From positions 1 through 64,000 of the forward strand of contig CALKXJ010000016.1 in NCBI GenBank assembly GCA_938003835.1: a DNA stretch of 64,000 bases. Reading direction: 5' to 3'. The notes under the pieces were generated by a model. The model ran no database searches. It worked only from the letters and a program-made list of their open reading frames with translations, and was not told the origin of the DNA. Of this stretch, positions 1 through 9,095 are shown in pieces. The position numbers were made by a program, and so were the translations under genes. This DNA is from an uncultured Bryobacteraceae bacterium. GTDB taxonomy: Bacteria > Acidobacteriota > Terriglobia > Bryobacterales > Bryobacteraceae. The number at the start of each line of letters is the position of its first letter. Positions within the stretch are counted from its first letter, which is position 1.

Positions 1-2372
1 ATTCCGTGCTGGTGACGAGCTTCTCCAGGGCGGCTGCCGCGGAGCTGGCCGGTCGGGACCTGCCGATCAGCGCAGAGCAGATTGGCACCCTGCACTCGCA
101 CTGCTACCACGCGCTGGGCGCACCCGCGATCGCTGAGGCGAACGTCGAGGAGTGGAACCGCGAGAATCCGCATCTTGCGATCACGCCGGTCAAGAAGCAA
201 GGCAGACTGGACGGGGAAGAAGGAACCGAGGACGACGAGGAACAAAAGGATGGAGATCACTGGCTACGGGAGTTGAACCGCTTTCGCGGGATGATGATCC
301 CGCCGGAATGGTGGCCGGTGAACGTGCGCCACTTCGCCTCCCGCTGGCAGCAGTACAAGGAAGCCCACGGCCTCCTGGACTTCTGCGACTTGATCGAGAC
401 CGCCCTCCGCGACATCCCCTTCGCGCCGAAGCGCCCTTCCGTGATCTTTGCCGACGAGGCCCAGGATCTCAACAAGATGCAGTTGACGCTGATCCGGAGA
501 TGGGGCGAGCGGGCGAACTACTTCATCGTGGCGGCCGACGACGATCAGTGTCAGCCACCTGGGACCATGGTGGGGACCAGGACCGGCGAGATGCCGATCG
601 AGCACTTGGACCCCGAGCACCATTCGCTGCTTGTCTATTCCCCCTTCGAAGGGCGGATCTACGGCGCCCAGTGCCGGGAGTACGGCTTCAGAAAAGCGTG
701 TCGCTCATACGACTGGGTGCTGCATACAGTTGCCGCCGGCGACCGGTTGACCCGCTGTACACCGGAGCACAAGTTCTTTGTCCGGTGGGTGAAGAATGAG
801 CTGTTGGACCGCGCGCACGTGGTGTATCTGATGCAGCAAGGCCGGCGGTTCCGCGTCGGCTGGTGCAAGCTGATCCGAACGGATGGCATCTTTCACCTCG
901 GCACTCGCGCCAGGCTGGAACACGCAGACGCAGCTTGGGTTCTGAAGGTGTTCTTCGACCGTACAGAAGCCAGTATTTACGAATCCTACATAGCGGCCAA
1001 GTACGGACTCCCCCTCGTCCCCTTCGAATCGGACAAAGGCGCTATCCACTACACCAGAGAATCCCTTGACCAGCTATTTCACATGCTCAGCGATGACCTC
1101 CCGCTGCGTGCGATCCAGTGCCTGCTCGACCATCACCGAGACCCACGCTTTCCGCTCTACACCCCTGACCGCGCCGCGGCGAAACGAGGCGGTAGTACGA
1201 CCTTCCTAACAGAAGCTTCCAATCTCCTGCCGGACATCATGGCGGTGCCCGTAGCCAATGTCCGGAATCGTGTGGATTGGGTTCCAATCCGCACCGAGGT
1301 CGAGCGCTACAGAGGGCCGGTCTACTCGCTGGAGGTCGAAAAGTACCACTCCTACGTCGCGGACGGCATTGCAACCCACAACTGCATCTACGGTTGGACG
1401 GGCGCATCGCCGGACGCAGTCCTCGACCCCGACATCCCCGCCGACCACAAGATCATCCTCAAGCAGAGCTACCGGGTACCCCGCGCTGTGCACGCCGCCG
1501 CGAACAGGCTCATCCGGCAGGTTACGCGAAGGCAGGAGAAGCCCTACCTGCCGCGGCCCGCCGATGGCGTCTCAACCTACGCGGGCGGCACTTGGCGCTT
1601 GCCGGAATACGCGATTCTCAAGGCCGCCATCCAGCACCTCGAGCGCGGCCAGACGGTCATGTTCCTGGCGAGCTGCTCGTATATGCTCCGCCCGGTGATC
1701 CAGGTGCTCCGCAAGAACGGCATCGCGTTTCACAACCCGTACCGGAAGGCGAACGGCTTCTGGAACCCGCTCCGCATGAGTCGCCGCGGATCGGCCGCCA
1801 GCCGAATCCTCGCGCTGCTTGTGGCGCACCCGGAGTTCGGGGAGGGATACCGGCCCTGGACGCACGGCGATTTGGCTCTGTGGGCGGAGTGGCTGTGCTC
1901 GAAAGGCATTCTGAAGCGGGGAGTCAAGCTTGGACTCCAGGGGGCCAATCCGGCGGAGGCGGTAACCATCGAGACGCTCGATCAGGTGTTCGAGGCCGGC
2001 GCGCTCGAAGAGCTTCTGAGCTGCTTCGAGGGCGACTACCGAAGGCTGCTCGACTGGTGGCTCCGGCGCCTCAACGCGTCGGTGGCCAAGCGGGTTGAGT
2101 TCCCAGCCGATATCGCCATGGCGCGCGGTCCGCAAGCGCTCCTGGAGACGCCGCGCGTCATCGTTGGAACGATTCATTCGGTCAAAGGCGGTGAGGCGGA
2201 CGTCGTGTTTTTGTTCCCGGACCTCAGTCAGGCCGGCGATACGGCCTATCAGCGGTTTGGGCCGCCGCGGGATGCCGTAATCCGAACCTTCTACGTGGGC
2301 ATGACGCGGGCACGCGAGGTCCTCTACATCGCCGAGAAAGCCTCGGCCATGGCGGCAACACTTCCCGTGTGA
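1..2372 (+). CDS. UvrD/REP-type DNA helicase with an intein (5' end outside window)
   Basis: This is a superfamily 1 ATP-dependent DNA helicase of the UvrD/Rep/PcrA type. The reading frame is open to the left edge, and the first visible motif is Ia (VTSFSRAAAAEL), so Walker A (motif I) lies outside the window and the gene is 5'-partial. Motif II reads VIFADEAQDL near nt 441-470. Motif III is split: AADDDQ ends at nt 548 and CIYGWTGA resumes at nt 1383, with an intein between them. A QSYRVPRAV motif IV-like region follows. Motif V (GTIHSVKGGEADVVF) and motif VI (TFYVGMTRAREVLYI) lie near the C-terminus, so the protein looks functional after splicing. The extein part in the window is about 510 residues. 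The gene ends in TGA shortly before the integrase gene and sits inside the element that ends at the tRNA-Pro fragment, so a replication or DNA-processing role for that element is likely. The exact subfamily cannot be fixed without the N-terminus. Confidence 0.9.
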   Translation, partial: SVLVTSFSRAAAAELAGRDLPISAEQIGTLHSHCYHALGAPAIAEANVEEWNRENPHLAITPVKKQGRLDGEEGTEDDEEQKDGDHWLRELNRFRGMMIPPEWWPVNVRHFASRWQQYKEAHGLLDFCDLIETALRDIPFAPKRPSVIFADEAQDLNKMQLTLIRRWGERANYFIVAADDDQCQPPGTMVGTRTGEMPIEHLDPEHHSLLVYSPFEGRIYGAQCREYGFRKACRSYDWVLHTVAAGDRLTRCTPEHKFFVRWVKNELLDRAHVVYLMQQGRRFRVGWCKLIRTDGIFHLGTRARLEHADAAWVLKVFFDRTEASIYESYIAAKYGLPLVPFESDKGAIHYTRESLDQLFHMLSDDLPLRAIQCLLDHHRDPRFPLYTPDRAAAKRGGSTTFLTEASNLLPDIMAVPVANVRNRVDWVPIRTEVERYRGPVYSLEVEKYHSYVADGIATHNCIYGWTGASPDAVLDPDIPADHKIILKQSYRVPRAVHAAANRLIRQVTRRQEKPYLPRPADGVSTYAGGTWRLPEYAILKAAIQHLERGQTVMFLASCSYMLRPVIQVLRKNGIAFHNPYRKANGFWNPLRMSRRGSAASRILALLVAHPEFGEGYRPWTHGDLALWAEWLCSKGILKRGVKLGLQGANPAEAVTIETLDQVFEAGALEELLSCFEGDYRRLLDWWLRRLNASVAKRVEFPADIAMARGPQALLETPRVIVGTIHSVKGGEADVVFLFPDLSQAGDTAYQRFGPPRDAVIRTFYVGMTRAREVLYIAEKASAMAATLPV
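549..1382 (+). other. Intein inside helicase motif III
   Basis: An in-frame insertion of 834 nt (278 codons) splits the helicase between DDDQ and CIYGWTGA. It begins with Cys1 (CQPPGTMVGT, block A). A block-B-like stretch with T-x-x-H (TPEHKFFV) comes next, and it ends in block F/G (VYSLEVEKYHSYVADGIATHN region) with the terminal His-Asn followed by an extein Cys+1. These are all the residues needed for canonical splicing. About 110-150 residues separate the N- and C-terminal splicing blocks. They lack obvious LAGLIDADG motifs. They contain VVYLM, 7 residues later FRVG, then an Arg (GTRARLEH) and a Glu (IYESYIAAKYG), in the order seen in GIY-YIG/T5orf172-type nucleases. The splicing call is strong; the nuclease assignment is inference. 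Confidence 0.9.
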
Positions 2373-2433
2373 TCCGGCTTGATTGATTATGCGGCCTGAA
2401 GGTAACTTCCCCTCGCTGACCGGAGGCTTACGC

Positions 2434-3729
2434 GTGAAGGCGAGAGTCCAGCATCCGAGAGTTCACGAGGCGATCAAGAGCCGCCAGGACGGATGGTGGT
2501 GGTTCTTCCGGTACTGGGCCGACCAAATCCGCTCAGACGGGACGGCGCAGACGGTCCGCAAGCGCCAGTGGCTCGGCCCGAGCCGGGGCGAGAAGAAGAT
2601 CTCGAAGAAGGAAGCCGAGATCGAGCGCGACAAGTTTCTGGCCAAGCTGAACGCCCCGACGGTTGAGACCGCCGTACAGCAGGCGGCAACCATGGGTGTC
2701 GCCCTGTTCGGTGAGGTCGCCCGGATGTACGAGGAGGGCTACCTGGCCCGCGAAAAGCAGATCGCCAAGCCGACGCGCGTGAAGGAGAAGTTCTACCTCC
2801 ACCGGTACATCCTGCCGAGGTGGGGCGCCCTGCGCCTAAACCAAATTCAGCCGAAGGCGGTCGAGGACTGGCTTCACACGACCTTTGACTCTTGGTGGAC
2901 CATGCACGGCGTGCGGGCCATCATGAGCCGGATCTACTACTATGCCGAAGGTCACGGACTGTGGGAAGAAGGCAGGCGCAGTCCCACCAGCAAGGCGAAG
3001 CTCGGCAAGCGGCGCTACAAGTACGAGCGCCGGATTCTCTCGTTCGACGAGACGGCCCGTGTGCTCGCTCGCCTGAAGGAACCCTACCGCCTGATCATCG
3101 AGACCTGCATCGCCACCGGCGCCCGGATCTCCGAAGTACTCGGCCTCAAGTGGAAGCATGTGGATCTGGAGGCCGGCACGATCCGGGTCGAACAGCGGGT
3201 CTGGCACCAGGACGTGGGTGCGCCCAAGAGCGAAGGCAGCCGCAGGATTCTAGGGATCGGGGATCTGGTGGCGCGCTTTCGGGCCAAGGCTGCCGAGGAG
3301 GGAGCCCAACTCGACTCCTGGGTGTTCTCCCAGAAGCGCGACCCGTCGAAGCCGCTCTGGGACTCCGGTGTGCGCGACGCCCTGCACCAAGCCGCCCAGG
3401 CCGAAGGCTGCGACTTTCCCGGCCTGGGCCCGCACTCCTTCCGCCGCGCCAACATCACCTGGCGGCAGCAAGTCGGCGGCAGCGCCATTGAAGCCTCCAA
3501 GATCGCCGGCCACAGCACCCTGGTGATGACCGGCGAGTATACCTTCGTCCCGCCGGAGCGGCAGAACGAACTCACCAGGAGAATTCAGGAGAAGCTGGCG
3601 GCCGCGGGACACGCAAGCAGTTGCCAGTGGGAACAGTCCCCTTTAGCATCCGCGCTGCGTGAGAATGCCGACCCCCCCAGCAGACTTGATGTTGCTCGCG
3701 TCGTGCCAGGTACCAGCGTTGTGCAGTGA
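2434..3729 (+). CDS. Tyrosine recombinase / phage-type integrase
   Basis: This is a site-specific recombinase that would catalyse integration and excision of the mobile element. The catalytic residues appear in order. Arg I is in TGARISEVLGLKW, Lys is in APKSEGSRR, and the HxxR box is in GPHSFRRANITW. The second His is in IAGHST, and the nucleophile Tyr is in TGEYTFVPPERQ. The N-terminal half has a WWWFFRYW core-binding/arm-type region and a SAM-like core-binding domain around residues 90-180. I chose the GTG at 2434 because GGAGG lies 7 nt upstream; an in-frame extension to ATG 2389 or TTG 2383 is possible. The residues after about 395 (ASSCQWEQ onward) look like a poorly constrained tail. 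The gene points towards the AGGTCCA repeats and the tRNA-Pro fragment 1.3 kb downstream, which are probably its own sites. It follows the helicase closely and may be co-transcribed with it. Confidence 0.93.
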   Translation: MKARVQHPRVHEAIKSRQDGWWWFFRYWADQIRSDGTAQTVRKRQWLGPSRGEKKISKKEAEIERDKFLAKLNAPTVETAVQQAATMGVALFGEVARMYEEGYLAREKQIAKPTRVKEKFYLHRYILPRWGALRLNQIQPKAVEDWLHTTFDSWWTMHGVRAIMSRIYYYAEGHGLWEEGRRSPTSKAKLGKRRYKYERRILSFDETARVLARLKEPYRLIIETCIATGARISEVLGLKWKHVDLEAGTIRVEQRVWHQDVGAPKSEGSRRILGIGDLVARFRAKAAEEGAQLDSWVFSQKRDPSKPLWDSGVRDALHQAAQAEGCDFPGLGPHSFRRANITWRQQVGGSAIEASKIAGHSTLVMTGEYTFVPPERQNELTRRIQEKLAAAGHASSCQWEQSPLASALRENADPPSRLDVARVVPGTSVVQ

Positions 3730-3839
3730 GTGCAGCGTGCACTATCGGGTGGACAATGCCCGCCGGGGTGCATGGGGCCTGTACTTCGCACCACCCTAGC
3801 TGTCCCCCCAGGCGCCTCTTTGGCTGCCACAAGCGGCCT

Positions 3840-4643
3840 TTACTTGAGGCTCTTCACAAGCTCCTTTAGCGACATTTTCCCCGTCTTATACCGCTCAACG
3901 AGGTCGATCACCATGTCCGCGAGCTCATCGGGGATGTACTCGCACATGAACTTTCCCCTCAGGCCTCGGCAGGTTCTCGTACTGAATGCGCCCTCCATCG
4001 CTTCTGTAACCAGTTCCGGAATTCTGGACGGATCACCACCACTTTCCCGCAGGATGGCTACTTGGATGTCCTGTTTAAAGCCGCCGATCTGCTCGTACAC
4101 CTCGGCCATCACCCCCGGGTCGGGGAAGGTCCGCGTGAGGGTGTAGAGTGCCTCGATCTTGGCGGGGCCCTCGCTGGTGGAGAGGCGCTGCTGGAGTTGC
4201 GGCGGCAGGGCCAGCAAGCTGAGATATTTCCGGATCGTGCCGACACTCACGCCCGTCTCTTTCGAGACGCGGCTGAAGTCTGAGCCATGGTGCTGGCTCA
4301 ACTGTTGGAAGGCGCGAGCCTTGTCCATGGGGTCCATGTCCGCCCGGTGGACGTTCTCGATGAGCGATATTGCCGTTGCATCTGTGTCATCCAGGCCGCT
4401 TCGAACGATCGCAGGGATTGACCGCATCCCGATCTTCTAGCAGGCCAGCAAGCGGCGCTGCCCAGAGATCAGTTCATAACCCTTCCCCACCGCGCGCACG
4501 ATAATCGGCTGAAGTAGCCCCTTCTCTCGGATGCTCGCGGCCAAGTCCTCGAGCGAACTGTCTTCCTGACCGGCTTCCAGCCTTTTCCGGGTGTTTTGAG
4601 CGGAAACGACGACTTTGTCAATCTCAATCTAGCGAACTTCCAT
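3840..4643 (-). pseudogene. ParB/Spo0J-family protein interrupted by two in-frame TAG codons
   Basis: Reading from ATG 4643, preceded by AGGAG about 8-9 nt upstream, gives a continuous 267-codon ParB-like protein broken only by TAG at 4629-4631 (codon 5) and TAG at 4437-4439 (codon 69). The N-terminal domain has IEIDKVVVSAQNTRKRLE, GLLQPIIVR, and a box-II-like GQRRLLAC just before the second TAG. The next part has SLIENVHRADMDPMDKARAF and a helix-turn-helix (ETGVSVGTIRKYLSLLALP), as in ParB/KorB/Spo0J. There is no frameshift. No parA partner is visible in the window. The product would be a centromere-binding or CTP-hydrolysing partition or regulatory protein of the element. Possible explanations are two nonsense mutations, suppressed amber codons, or expression of only the HTH half from ATG 4427. 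It may be a pseudogene. Confidence 0.8.
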
Positions 4644-5063
4644 GACTCATTCTCCTGTCGGGCCGCTCGCCGATTCAGCCTCTCCGCCCTTCGCGATGCG
4701 ATACGCCTGGATTATCTCACACGTCGGATCAACGGGTTCAGCGGACAAGAACGCGCGCGGTCGTCTTCGGCGGTTGTCCCTCGAGCCTTACGTAGGGGAA
4801 GGGCACGGGGCCGTGGGGTCTCTGGGGTCATCCATATATAGGCGAGGGAATTCTTCGTCTCCTGTTTCGCAAACTGAGTTTTCACGGCCGTCGGCGTAGA
4901 ATCGCGCGCGAAGCACGTGATGTACCAAGCGCTCTTTTCAGGTCCAGTGCAGGTCCACACTGGCGTGGCATGCCGGGTTTAGGTCCAATTTAGGTCCAAA
5001 ACCATCGCGGCTAAGTCTTTTGTTTTCAAACAGGGGTGTCTGTAAGTGATTGATATTTTTTCC
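4644..5063. other. Gene-free end of the integrated element
   Basis: This 420-nt stretch lies between the ParB-like gene and the tRNA-Pro fragment. I see no convincing gene in it. It holds the ribosome-binding site of the ParB-like gene (about 4650-4656, minus strand), a TATATA-rich spot near 4833-4841 that could be part of a leftward promoter, and four AGGTCCA repeats (4940-4998). From about 5000 to 5063 the sequence becomes AT-richer (TTTTGTTTTC, TGATATTTTTTCC) than its surroundings and runs directly into the tRNA-like sequence. This fits the attachment arm region of a tyrosine-integrase element. Confidence 0.55.
4940..4998 (+). repeat. Four AGGTCCA repeats in two pairs, candidate integrase arm sites
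   Basis: AGGTCCA occurs exactly at 4940-4946, 4951-4957, 4981-4987 and 4992-4998. Within each pair the copies start 11 bp apart (one helical turn), and the two pairs are offset by 41 bp (about four turns). All copies have the same orientation. They sit 66-124 bp before the tRNA-Pro fragment where the integrase is expected to cut. Phased direct repeats beside a core site are typical arm-type sites for tyrosine integrases, or sites for an excisionase or regulator. The functional assignment is inference; the repeats themselves are certain. Confidence 0.75.
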
Positions 5064-5108
5064 TTGGGGTGCAAGAGGTCCCGGGTTCAAATCCCGGCGG
5101 CCCGACCA
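5064..5108 (+). other. 3' half of a tRNA-Pro(GGG) gene, likely attR
   Basis: The 45 nt fold as the 3' half of a tRNA. They give an anticodon loop TTGGGGT (5064-5070, anticodon GGG), the 3' anticodon stem GCAAG, a variable loop AGGTC, and a T arm CCGGG-TTCAAAT-CCCGG. The 3' acceptor strand is CGGCCCG (5098-5104), followed by discriminator A and encoded CCA (5106-5108). The bases before 5064 (TTTTTCC) do not pair with the anticodon stem, and no D arm or 5' acceptor strand is present, so the gene is not intact. G37 and anticodon GGG identify proline. The break at the anticodon loop is a classic tyrosine-integrase crossover position. The complete tRNA gene should lie at the other end of the element, left of this window. 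Confidence 0.88.
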
Positions 5109-5341
5109 ATTGCCCCGGATCGCTTGCTTGGCACCCCGCGGGCGCTCAAGCGTTCATGGTGCCAGACCAGGCTCGTTTCAGGATCGCCTGCACTGGTCTT
5201 CGCCGCCCAGCTCGTAGGGGTCCCCGCAAGCGTCTTTCCCGGCCCCGTGACAAGGCTCCCGTCTAGGTTCTGCACCCAACTCTAACCCGGCCAGCGTAGC
5301 CATCACAGAAGGAAAACGCGTCGACATGAAGGATTGGGGAG

Positions 5342-6480: not shown

Positions 6481-7779
6481 TCAGAATATTACCTTCAGCC
6501 CGTCCCAGCCGCGTTCGAGCATCCCGCAGGTGGCGCAGCGGGTGGGCATGGCGCGGCAGAAGTCGAGGTTGCAGCGCACCCGCCGGCCCGCCAAGGCGAG
6601 GGCGATGCGGTCCAGCCGCTGGGTGTCGCGCCCCTTGATCAACACCACATCGCCCGCCTCCAGCAGCTCCCGCAACCGCGCGGTCACCGCGGCGATATCG
6701 CCCGGCATCTGTATGATCGCCGCGCGCGGCATGCCCGCACTCGCGGCGCCCGCGCTGTAGGCCTGGTTTTGTGAACTCGAGAACAAAGCAAGGTCCGCCA
6801 CTCGCGCGACCCGCGTGCCGATCGCCCGGTAGATCGGCCCCTGAGGACCCGGCGGCTCGCTGACATCGCCCAGTACGACGATCTTTCGCTTCGCCGGAAC
6901 TTGCGCCAGGAAATCCAGGGCGGAGTGAATCGTCTCGAGGCCAGACTTATAGAAGTCCCCCAGAATCGTCACCCCGTCCTCGAGCGGGATCAACTCCATC
7001 CGGCCCGGGGTCGGCGGCAGCCCGGCCAACCGCCCGATCGCCGTCTCGAGATCGACCCCCAGCTCGGCGGCGACCGCCAGCGCGGCCAGCGCAGGATAGA
7101 CCATGTGGCGGCCGAACAGCCGGGTTCGCACCGTCGCGGTTCCGCCGGGATGGCGGAGCGTGAACTCGGTCCCGTGCGGCCATACCAGCCGCGACTCCAA
7201 GGCTTGGAAGTCGCTTCGTTCGTCGAAGCCGAAGCTCAGCCGGCGCGCCGGCGTCTGGGCGGCCATCCAGAGCGCGTTCTCATCGTCGTGATTCACGACG
7301 ACGAATCCGTCCGGCGGCAGACGCCGGAGCATTTCCGCCTTCTCGCGGCGGGTCACCTCGAGACTGCCCAGGCTGCGGTTGTGCTCGCTGCCGACCGAAG
7401 TGACAACGCAGGCGACCGGCCGGATGACCGCGGCAAACTCGCGCATCTGCCCCGGGTGATCGATGCCCACTTCGATGACGGCGCCCGGCGCCCCCGCTTT
7501 GGTCCTGAGCAGCGCCAGCGGTATGAAGCTCTTGTCATTGAGTTCGATTTGCGGCGCGACCGGCCGGCCGAGAACCTGGGTGACGGCGCGCGTCGTGGTG
7601 GTCTTGCCGTAGCTGCCGATGACGGCGACAAGCCGGGTGCGCCGGAGGGCGGTGCGGCGCCAGGCACCGGCCAGCCGTGACATCAGGGGCCAGGCGCGGT
7701 GAAGCATTCCGCTCAGCACCTGGGAACGGCCGATGGGAGTCCGCAAGACATGATGGGCGTCCCGGAGCCGGTATCTCAA
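6481..7779 (-). CDS. Mur-ligase-like ATP-dependent ligase with a tetracysteine tail
   Basis: This is a MurF/Mur-ligase-family enzyme that would form an amide bond by an acyl-phosphate mechanism. The P-loop reads AVIGSYGKTTTTRAV. The central domain has the family's EVGIDHPGQM, VVTSVGSEHNRSLGS (His-containing) and KAEMLRRLPPDGFVVVNHDD signatures. The C-terminal domain carries PTPGRMELIPLEDGVTILGD and IKGRDTQRLDRI. At 432 aa it is close to MurF length, but it lacks the normal N-terminal UDP-binding domain and begins with a basic hydrophobic stretch. The last 30 residues hold a C-x4-C-x6-C-x2-C cluster (CNLDFC...CATC), foreign to MurF and suited to a metal site. The start is TTG 7779, overlapping the TGA of the upstream paralogue (TTGA), so the two genes are translationally coupled. 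The true substrate is unknown. Confidence 0.85.
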   Translation of the reverse strand: MRYRLRDAHHVLRTPIGRSQVLSGMLHRAWPLMSRLAGAWRRTALRRTRLVAVIGSYGKTTTTRAVTQVLGRPVAPQIELNDKSFIPLALLRTKAGAPGAVIEVGIDHPGQMREFAAVIRPVACVVTSVGSEHNRSLGSLEVTRREKAEMLRRLPPDGFVVVNHDDENALWMAAQTPARRLSFGFDERSDFQALESRLVWPHGTEFTLRHPGGTATVRTRLFGRHMVYPALAALAVAAELGVDLETAIGRLAGLPPTPGRMELIPLEDGVTILGDFYKSGLETIHSALDFLAQVPAKRKIVVLGDVSEPPGPQGPIYRAIGTRVARVADLALFSSSQNQAYSAGAASAGMPRAAIIQMPGDIAAVTARLRELLEAGDVVLIKGRDTQRLDRIALALAGRRVRCNLDFCRAMPTRCATCGMLERGWDGLKVIF

Positions 7780-9095
7780 GCTCGCCCTCCTGCCGGCTCA
7801 GGACGTCCGGCTTGGGAACCCCGCGGCGCACGCGGGCCGAGCTCGGAGCACTCGTCGCACAAGTGCCGGTATTCGCAGGTGTCCAACCAGCAACGAACCT
7901 CGGTTACCAGGTCCAGATAAATCCGCGACAGGTGGTCACGGTTTCGCCCCTTGAGCAGGATGAGGTCGCCCGAAACCGTGTTCGTCCGGAGCCAGGAGGC
8001 CGCCGCGCGGGCGTGCTCGAAGCTCAGAACTGCGCCCGAATCAAGGCCCCCTGCGTGCGCGCCCCGGGCCGCATAATGGGCCTCCGGGCCGATGAGAATC
8101 ACCATGTCGGCGGAGGCCGCGGCAAGCCTGCCCAGCTCGAAGAGCCGCTCCGGCGCCGGCCGGTCGTCGTCGGTCACGTCGCGGAGGATGGCGATGCGGC
8201 GCCGCGCGCGGGCCTGGCGGAGGACCTCGAGCGCGACGCGCGTGGTGCCGGCCGAGCCGTTGAACTCATCCCGGATCAGCACGGCGCCGCCGGCCAGCTC
8301 CACCGGCTCCAGACGCGCGGCAAAGGGCTCGAGATGCGCGATGACGGAAAGAGATCGTTTCAGATCCACGCCGCAGACTCGTCCGGCCAGCAACGCCGCC
8401 AGCACTGGCGACGCCCAGTGCGCGCCCACGAATCGGGTGGTGACCCGGTAGGATTGCTCGCCCGAGTGCACGCGGAGCCGCATCCGCTCGGGCCAGGCGC
8501 CGGAAATGTTGTCGGCCCACAGGTCAAAGGAGGGATCCGAGCCGTAGAAGTAACCGCCCCGCTACTTGCCCGAGTTGCCCATGAGACGCACGTGGGGATC
8601 ATCCCCGTTGAGGATGGCGGCGCCGTTACGCCTCAAACCGCCCAGCAGCCTCGCCTTCTCGGCGGCCGTGGACTCGAGCGTGGGGAAGTTCTCGCTGTGT
8701 TCACGGGCGACGCCGGTAATGATGACGAGGTCGGGCCGCGCGAGCCAGGCGGCGCGCCACATCTGACCCGGGGCCTCGATGCCGATTTCCACGACTGCAT
8801 AGCGATGCCAGGGCCGCGCGCCGAGAATCGTACGGATCAACCCTTGCCGGCCGTTGTGCGATGAGCGGGTCTTGTGAACACAGTACCGCGACGCCAGGAT
8901 GGCAGCCAACAGCTCCTTGGCCGTGGTCTTGCCGTTGGAGCCTGTGATGGCGACGAACGTGGTGCGGAGAAGCAGCCGCCTCCAGAGGGCGGCGGCAAGG
9001 GCCAGGGGCAGGTTGTAGAGGAAACTGCGAACCAGCCGGTATTTCCAACGACGGAGGCGCCCCCCGACCATCTCTCTTAAGGGTATCCGGCGCAA
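7776..9095 (-). pseudogene. Second Mur-ligase-like gene with tetracysteine tail, interrupted by one TAG
   Basis: This is a paralogue of the downstream gene. It has a P-loop (AITGSNGKTTAKELLAAIL), EIGIEAPGQM, ITGVAREHSENFPTLEST and AAILNGDDPHVRLMG in the first part. The C-terminal part has LRDVTDDDRPAPER and LLKGRNRDHLSRIYLDL. Only one lesion is present: a TAG at 8562-8564 after MGNSGK, with the same frame continuing as RGGYFYGSDPSFDLWAD. No frameshift is needed, so the rest reads as an intact 440-codon gene. The tail again carries Cys residues spaced C-x4-C-x5-C-x2-C (CWLDTCEYRHLCDEC). The start is TTG 9095 or the in-frame ATG 24 nt later. The two paralogues overlap and probably formed one operon. 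Either this gene is freshly inactivated, or the amber codon is read through, or the two halves are made separately. Confidence 0.8.

Follow-up and report, generated by a model that had tools for sequence, protein, structure and literature searches.

The question raised by this locus is whether half of a tRNA gene, lying close to an integrase gene, marks the edge of an integrated element and, if so, what kind of element ends there and where its other end lies. The window (the whole stretch of DNA analysed, 64,000 nt) is the start of contig C16 of assembly G000 (38 contigs, 5.0 Mb); draft assemblies were used throughout, for G000 and for its relatives. A first-pass annotation had read positions 5064-5108 as the 3′ half of tRNA-Pro(GGG) and as the right attachment site of an element, with mobile DNA to its left and an intact copy of the tRNA at its other end. 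On the comparisons described here, a temperate tailed phage has very likely inserted into the tRNA-Pro(GGG) gene of this Bryobacteraceae (Acidobacteriota) genome, with window 1-5108 as its right end. The features concerned are these:

1-2372, plus strand: UvrD/Rep-like phage DNA helicase, N-terminus cut by the contig start (Pfam PF00580/PF13361; PHROG 1967, E = 6e-44)
2383-3729, plus strand: tyrosine recombinase (integrase), intact reading frame (Pfam PF00589 Phage_integrase, E = 3.5e-17; PHROG 1, E = 6e-41)
3840-4643, minus strand: ParB-like gene in the cargo slot, after the integrase and before attR (NCBIfam TIGR00180, E = 5e-13, short of the curated cut-off)
4940-4957, plus strand: right-arm repeat pair R1 (AGGTCCA twice, 11-nt period)
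4981-4998, plus strand: right-arm repeat pair R2 (AGGTCCA twice, 11-nt period)
5040-5054, plus strand: CTGTAAGTGATTGAT, recurrent in right arms (read by eye)
5063-5108, plus strand: putative attR core, 3′ half of tRNA-Pro(GGG), 100% identical over 46 nt to C13:319-364
5109-5341, no strand: DNA directly adjoining the element on its right, with no relation to the sequence beside the G010 copy

A full tRNA-Pro(GGG) gene with the matching 3′ end was found on another contig of the same assembly: window 5063-5108 (+) equals positions 33-78 of an intact 78-nt gene at C13:396-319, with 46 of 46 nt identical. Searched against the whole assembly, the half tRNA gave a match of 49 nt at 98% (E = 2.4e-17), and ARAGORN found no complete tRNA in the 64-kb window. 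The tRNA with its flanks as query returned four matches in G000: besides the intact gene and the half there were two full-length relatives, one on C26 (82%, a TGG isoacceptor) and one on C5 (78%). No intact tRNA-Pro(GGG) other than the C13 copy was found in G000. The 7-nt anticodon loop TTGGGGT begins at position 5064, as the first-pass annotation had it, but the identity does not start exactly there, since it reaches one further base to the left, at 5063. At the other end the half does finish in CCA, the A of which is position 5108. In the predicted fold of the intact tRNA the acceptor, anticodon, and T stems appear, at a z of -0.70, no better than shuffled sequences. Beyond the right end of the half tRNA, at a distance of 12 nt, CGCTTGCTTGG (window 5121-5131) repeats 11 nt of the tRNA anticodon arm, possibly by chance.

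The integrase gene that had been said to flank the half tRNA is a tyrosine recombinase gene located 1.3 kb inside attR. The catalytic motif of tyrosine recombinases consists of R, HxxR, H/W, and Y, and in the alignment of the window integrase R, HxxR, H, and Y are visible. The ParB-like gene on its right has two in-frame stops, one of them common to the relative G010. The element has a GC content of 62.3%, against 67.0% for the chromosome. The helicase gene is interrupted at about 549-1382 by an intein of 278 aa, inserted at ADDDQ/CIYGW (TIGR01443 intein C-terminus, E = 6.5e-9); the helicases of related phages at seven loci (L064-L070) are without this insertion. A second tyrosine recombinase, 26% identical to the window integrase, is encoded at the start of contig C12 of the same assembly (L107:20-982).

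The right boundary is placed by a genome from another genus of the same family. Contig C8 of G010 carries window 3139-5108 at 98.9% identity over 1970 nt, ungapped; the match ends exactly at the CCA (5108), and the flanks beyond differ. Its left limit is G010's own contig end, inside the integrase gene. As nearly all of the 188.8-kb G010 contig lies outside the element, it is unlikely to be a misbinned fragment. On this comparison the left side appears in two chromosomes and can be seen to end at the CCA, which supports reading window 5063-5108 as a genuine element boundary, attR, and bears out the claim that the DNA to the left of 5064 is mobile. An unduplicated half tRNA in unbroken synteny is excluded by the duplicate on C13 together with the break in identity at the CCA. 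The near-identical copy in G010 suggests recent movement or transfer across genera, and the element may be mobile still.

The phased repeats of the first-pass annotation proved to be real: AGGTCCA occurs at window 4940, 4951, 4981, and 4992. The paired pattern AGGTCCAN{2,7}AGGTCCA is found in the 5.0-Mb assembly only at R1 and R2; the backward control pattern also has two matches, and rarity in itself is therefore weak evidence. The recurrence of the repeats at nearly fixed offsets in relatives appears to be stronger evidence. At 25 half-tRNA junctions, chosen by homology, the pairs start 109-124 and 77-84 nt before the core, with both pairs present at 18 junctions, the outer pair only at five, and neither at two (a pattern count made without a shuffle control). 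The repeats are paired with an 11-nt period, two pairs on the right and one on the left, with three left sites in G233 and G012; GTCCA is common to most variants, while the inner pair of G233 is GACCA. Where the left arm directly follows the core (L160, L164, L152) its pair stands 51 nt after the CCA, and L046 has 12-nt spacing. In these four loci right arm, core, and left arm are contiguous, and the types of the two arms agree in all four, which are the junctions showing both. A strict scan for left arms at 30 intact loci (L006-L035) returned the paired repeat at six, a TTAC-type motif at 11, and both at five, compared with no upstream pair at any of the 30 and a mean shuffle rate of 0.35%; by eye, a left arm was read in 16 of 25 loci on a hand-picked list. 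Inspection by eye also indicated that ACTTACAG, the reverse complement of the first 8 nt of CTGTAAGTGATTGAT, recurs in the left arms of relatives, and that in many junctions CTGTAAGT, ahead of the core, forms an inverted pair with ACTTACAG beyond it.

The suggestion that arm type is a read-out of the integrase N-terminal domain was rejected, the integrases of G012 and G233 being 95% identical and their arms different: the G012 left arm is AGGTCCA-type and the G233 arms are GGAGTC/GGAGACC-type. The phage stretches of these two loci (L209 in G012, L160 in G233) are 92-93% identical.

The bases immediately upstream of TTGGGG vary between elements, and the identity of element and tRNA starts at or just before TTGGGGT. 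The simplest reading is therefore that crossover took place at the anticodon loop or downstream of it, and the loop itself, 5064-5070, is the likely place. Integration into the anticodon loop of tRNA genes by a tyrosine integrase is a well known mechanism. Here, the integrase would have recombined attP with the host tRNA over a 46-nt tRNA 3′ half present in both; the core site would be the anticodon stem-loop CTTGC-TTGGGGT-GCAAG, and the arm sites, presumably bound by the integrase, would be the paired, mostly GTCCA-type repeats on both sides. The phage-supplied 3′ half would have restored the host tRNA at attL and left the chromosomal 3′ half displaced to 5063-5108 as attR.

The type of element was read from relatives in which more of it is assembled. 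A single 29.5-kb contig of G012 starts with 47 nt of chromosome, after which come the intact tRNA, a left arm, and genes for a protease, portal, helicase, primase, UvrD helicase, and finally the integrase; the 47-nt chromosomal piece is identical to the end of another G012 contig, and no terminase query matched the 29.5-kb contig. Terminase genes lie 1.7 kb (G033) and 9 kb (G170) inside the intact tRNA, portal genes are present in the elements of G033, G170, and G012, and G033 has a capsid gene as well. G010 has the intact tRNA, then two AGGTCCA repeats, then the start of a terminase. The order primase, UvrD helicase, integrase recurs at five loci (L064, L160, L205, L209, L211). This gene content between intact tRNA and integrase in relatives therefore points to a tailed prophage, and the G000 element would likewise be a whole phage. 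On the chromosomal side, the left-flank genes beside the tRNA (acyl-CoA dehydrogenase, FixC-like, and two more) are common to G000 and G033. One of the five loci, L211 (G017:C19), has two integrase genes of this family in tandem, 83% and, for a partial gene, 71% identical.

Two siblings of genus g25 appear to display the same integration event elsewhere in the family, in outline. G211 has an upstream block, the intact tRNA, 1.0 kb of unaligned sequence, and a downstream block on one contig. In G217 the upstream block, the intact tRNA, and left-arm-like sequence reach a contig end, and a second contig holds a right arm, the half tRNA, 3.2 kb of unaligned sequence, and the downstream block. The two genomes are 84% identical over 1932 nt in the upstream block and 88% over 1979 nt in the downstream one; as the 1.0 and 3.2 kb between tRNA and downstream block do not align, the empty site is not base-exact. 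The 3.2 kb in G217 begins like a left arm, and G217 may therefore carry a second, older remnant. Half tRNAs can arise via duplication, and the copy in the window might be put down to coincidence, or to a tRNA duplicate or pseudogene of the ordinary kind, formed without integration. This is hardly credible here: the nearby integrase, the repeat pairs at recurrent offsets, the cross-genus identity that ends exactly at the CCA, and the G211/G217 flank comparison all speak against it.

For G000 itself no empty site was seen, because its right-flank genes have no useful synteny with relatives and the genomes listed include no other member of its genus. The gene hyp353 is present only in G000 among 41 genomes, and the MurF-like gene reaches at most 37% identity in relatives, with one right-flank match of 38% on G033:C22. 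This orphan MurF-like gene (window 6481-7779) has no match above 37% in 40 relatives; it adjoins a second MurF-like gene (7776-9095) that is interrupted by one in-frame TAG.

Arm and core together, counted where a match reached at least 23 nt to the left of the half tRNA, were found at at least 35 places in at least 33 of 237 family genomes, and relatives of the integrase (E ≤ 1e-60) in 27 of the 237, G000 being included in both counts. Among 14 loci from named genome records, seven at 70-99% identity and one short piece at 83% are all from Acidobacteriota; the remaining six reach 25-33%, and one of these is from Acidobacteria. One of seven viral-contig candidates is a relative (71%). No half tRNA was detected at E ≤ 1e-4 on the IMG/VR terminase contigs (19 loci, L087-L105) or on L064. 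Window 1-5108 had no DNA match among deposited phages, and the integrase matched 333 deposited-phage records and 18 plasmid records, all below 60% identity; the 20 phage matches listed are 23-28% identical to it. The phage would represent a new lineage, and its site a hotspot used repeatedly in Bryobacteraceae.

The slot between integrase and attR appears to hold variable cargo. It is occupied by type I restriction genes in G033, a TGT-like protein and a DUF5591 protein in G011, an HD protein in G170, a marginal Mrr-like protein and a nucleotidyltransferase protein in G219, a pRiA4 ORF-3-like protein in G123 (L068), and the broken ParB-like gene in G000 and G010; the five ORFs in G233 had no match above Pfam cut-offs. 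The G002 slot (L044:2655-9700) encodes a TonB-dependent receptor and a CobN-like chelatase of 1337 aa, an unexpected freight for a phage.

Other DNA uses the same site. Islands in G121 (L153, 13.8 kb) and G210 (L154, 14.4 kb) extend from an intact tRNA with a left arm to an armed half tRNA and carry metabolic genes, in G121 also defence-like genes. Neither has a relative of the window integrase at E ≤ 1e-5, and no integrase domain was found among their Pfam-scanned ORFs (nine of 13 in G121, ten of 13 in G210). That tRNA-Pro(GGG) is a shared landing strip in this family, at which autonomous phages keep their integrase and islands of the G121/G210 type, as non-autonomous cargo, depend on that phage enzyme acting in trans, is a speculation to which we give little credence.

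How the two ends in G000 belong together is a separate matter. On C13, 318 nt separate the intact tRNA from the contig start, and the gene points as an attL should, with C13:318-1 as the element side; the intact and half copies are thus on different contigs (C13 and C16), each with its element side toward a contig start. No join between C13 and C16 was found; we infer that they belong together from the tRNA copy number and from the way the two copies are oriented. The prediction of an intact tRNA-Pro(GGG) at the other end of the element accordingly stands in part: the gene exists, as the sole copy found and in attL-like orientation, whereas the 318-nt C13 tail after it is without a left arm and no link to C16 was seen. 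No left-arm repeats were found in this tail and no homology to the left ends of relatives, its GC content is 70.8%, and for these reasons it was not accepted as the left end of this element. Nor does it resemble the window from 5109 onward, and the idea that it is empty chromosome running into 5109 was rejected. Outside G000, in 41 genomes, it has only three matches, of 30-61 nt.

The phage late genes of G000 lie on small contigs with no link to C13 or C16. Contigs C30, C34, and C35 share 141-nt end overlaps and encode the small and large terminase (the latter with one in-frame stop), a portal, a capsid-protease protein, and a tail protein; a primase is encoded on C32. Among the contig ends compared, no overlap was found between C13 or C16 and the bin's phage contigs, and the ends of C13 and C16 recur elsewhere in the assembly only in a match of C32 to window 3-94, in the helicase region. 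This match is only 83% over 92 nt, from a related but different phage, and the bin therefore holds more than one related phage.

An armless tail of differing GC would fit a variant of this reading in which the half tRNA is attR and the C13 tail belongs to a later element in the same tRNA, so that C13 and the window would be parts of different elements in tandem. Arrays do occur in the family. On one contig of G065 (L152, G065:C57:20501-40500), a tRNA-like copy with 4 extra nt (called Ala by ARAGORN), a 35-nt fragment, and two armed halves with 3.9 kb between them lie within 16 kb, which reads as stacked integration, and the four contiguous junctions of right arm, core, and left arm described above fit the same pattern. 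However, no second half tRNA is assembled in G000, and the C13 tail is only 318 nt long and carries no gene or element assignment. Such stacking in G000 is a real prospect, if somewhat short of an even chance. The armless tail could also mean that the left end and middle of the phage were lost after integration and the right end alone was kept. The two in-frame stops of the ParB-like gene would agree with decay, as would the both-armed islands of G121 and G210 in which no integrase was detected. Set against this are the intact integrase frame, the recent movement suggested by the near-identical G010 copy, and the phage late-gene contigs in the bin, though these are without a link; we regard a decayed remnant as rather unlikely. 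The reading as the right end of an integrated tailed phage is the one followed below.

Integration into tRNA genes was reportedly classified by Williams in 2002. A lambda-type attP has a core with arm-type repeats on both sides, in unequal numbers per arm. The sites described here would share this layout of core and unequal arms, and differ in that the repeats of this phage lineage are paired with an 11-nt period. In the Islander collection, 2083 of 3919 islands have an anticodon-centred attP (class 'A'), where an island is defined by an intact tRNA gene with a 3′ fragment of that gene in the same orientation downstream on one replicon, an interval of 2-200 kb, and an integrase inside (PMC4383910). 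With its intact tRNA, displaced 3′ fragment ending at the CCA, and tyrosine integrase on the element, the G000 locus resembles class 'A', and no categorical difference is seen from the portion of the Islander account used (PMC4383910). Prophages have been reported in Acidobacteria generally (PMC5900883), and the viruses of Acidobacteriota have been called little known in a Tunturi virus study, which also describes a Bryobacterales provirus group (i) of Caudoviricetes proviruses in Bryobacteraceae-type hosts (PMC11924767). Our element, as a putative Caudoviricetes provirus of such a host, can be likened to group (i) by description only, the consulted sections of that account giving no attachment site (PMC11924767). 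In a partial literature search, no title or abstract described this tRNA-Pro(GGG) site in Bryobacteraceae.

Taken as the right end of an integrated tailed phage, the locus would fix one end of a prophage lineage that has no close relative in the deposited phage collection searched. It would also supply attP- and attB-like sequences with recurrent arms for Acidobacteriota, and the variable slot between integrase and attR may be a place to look for lysogenic cargo in this family.
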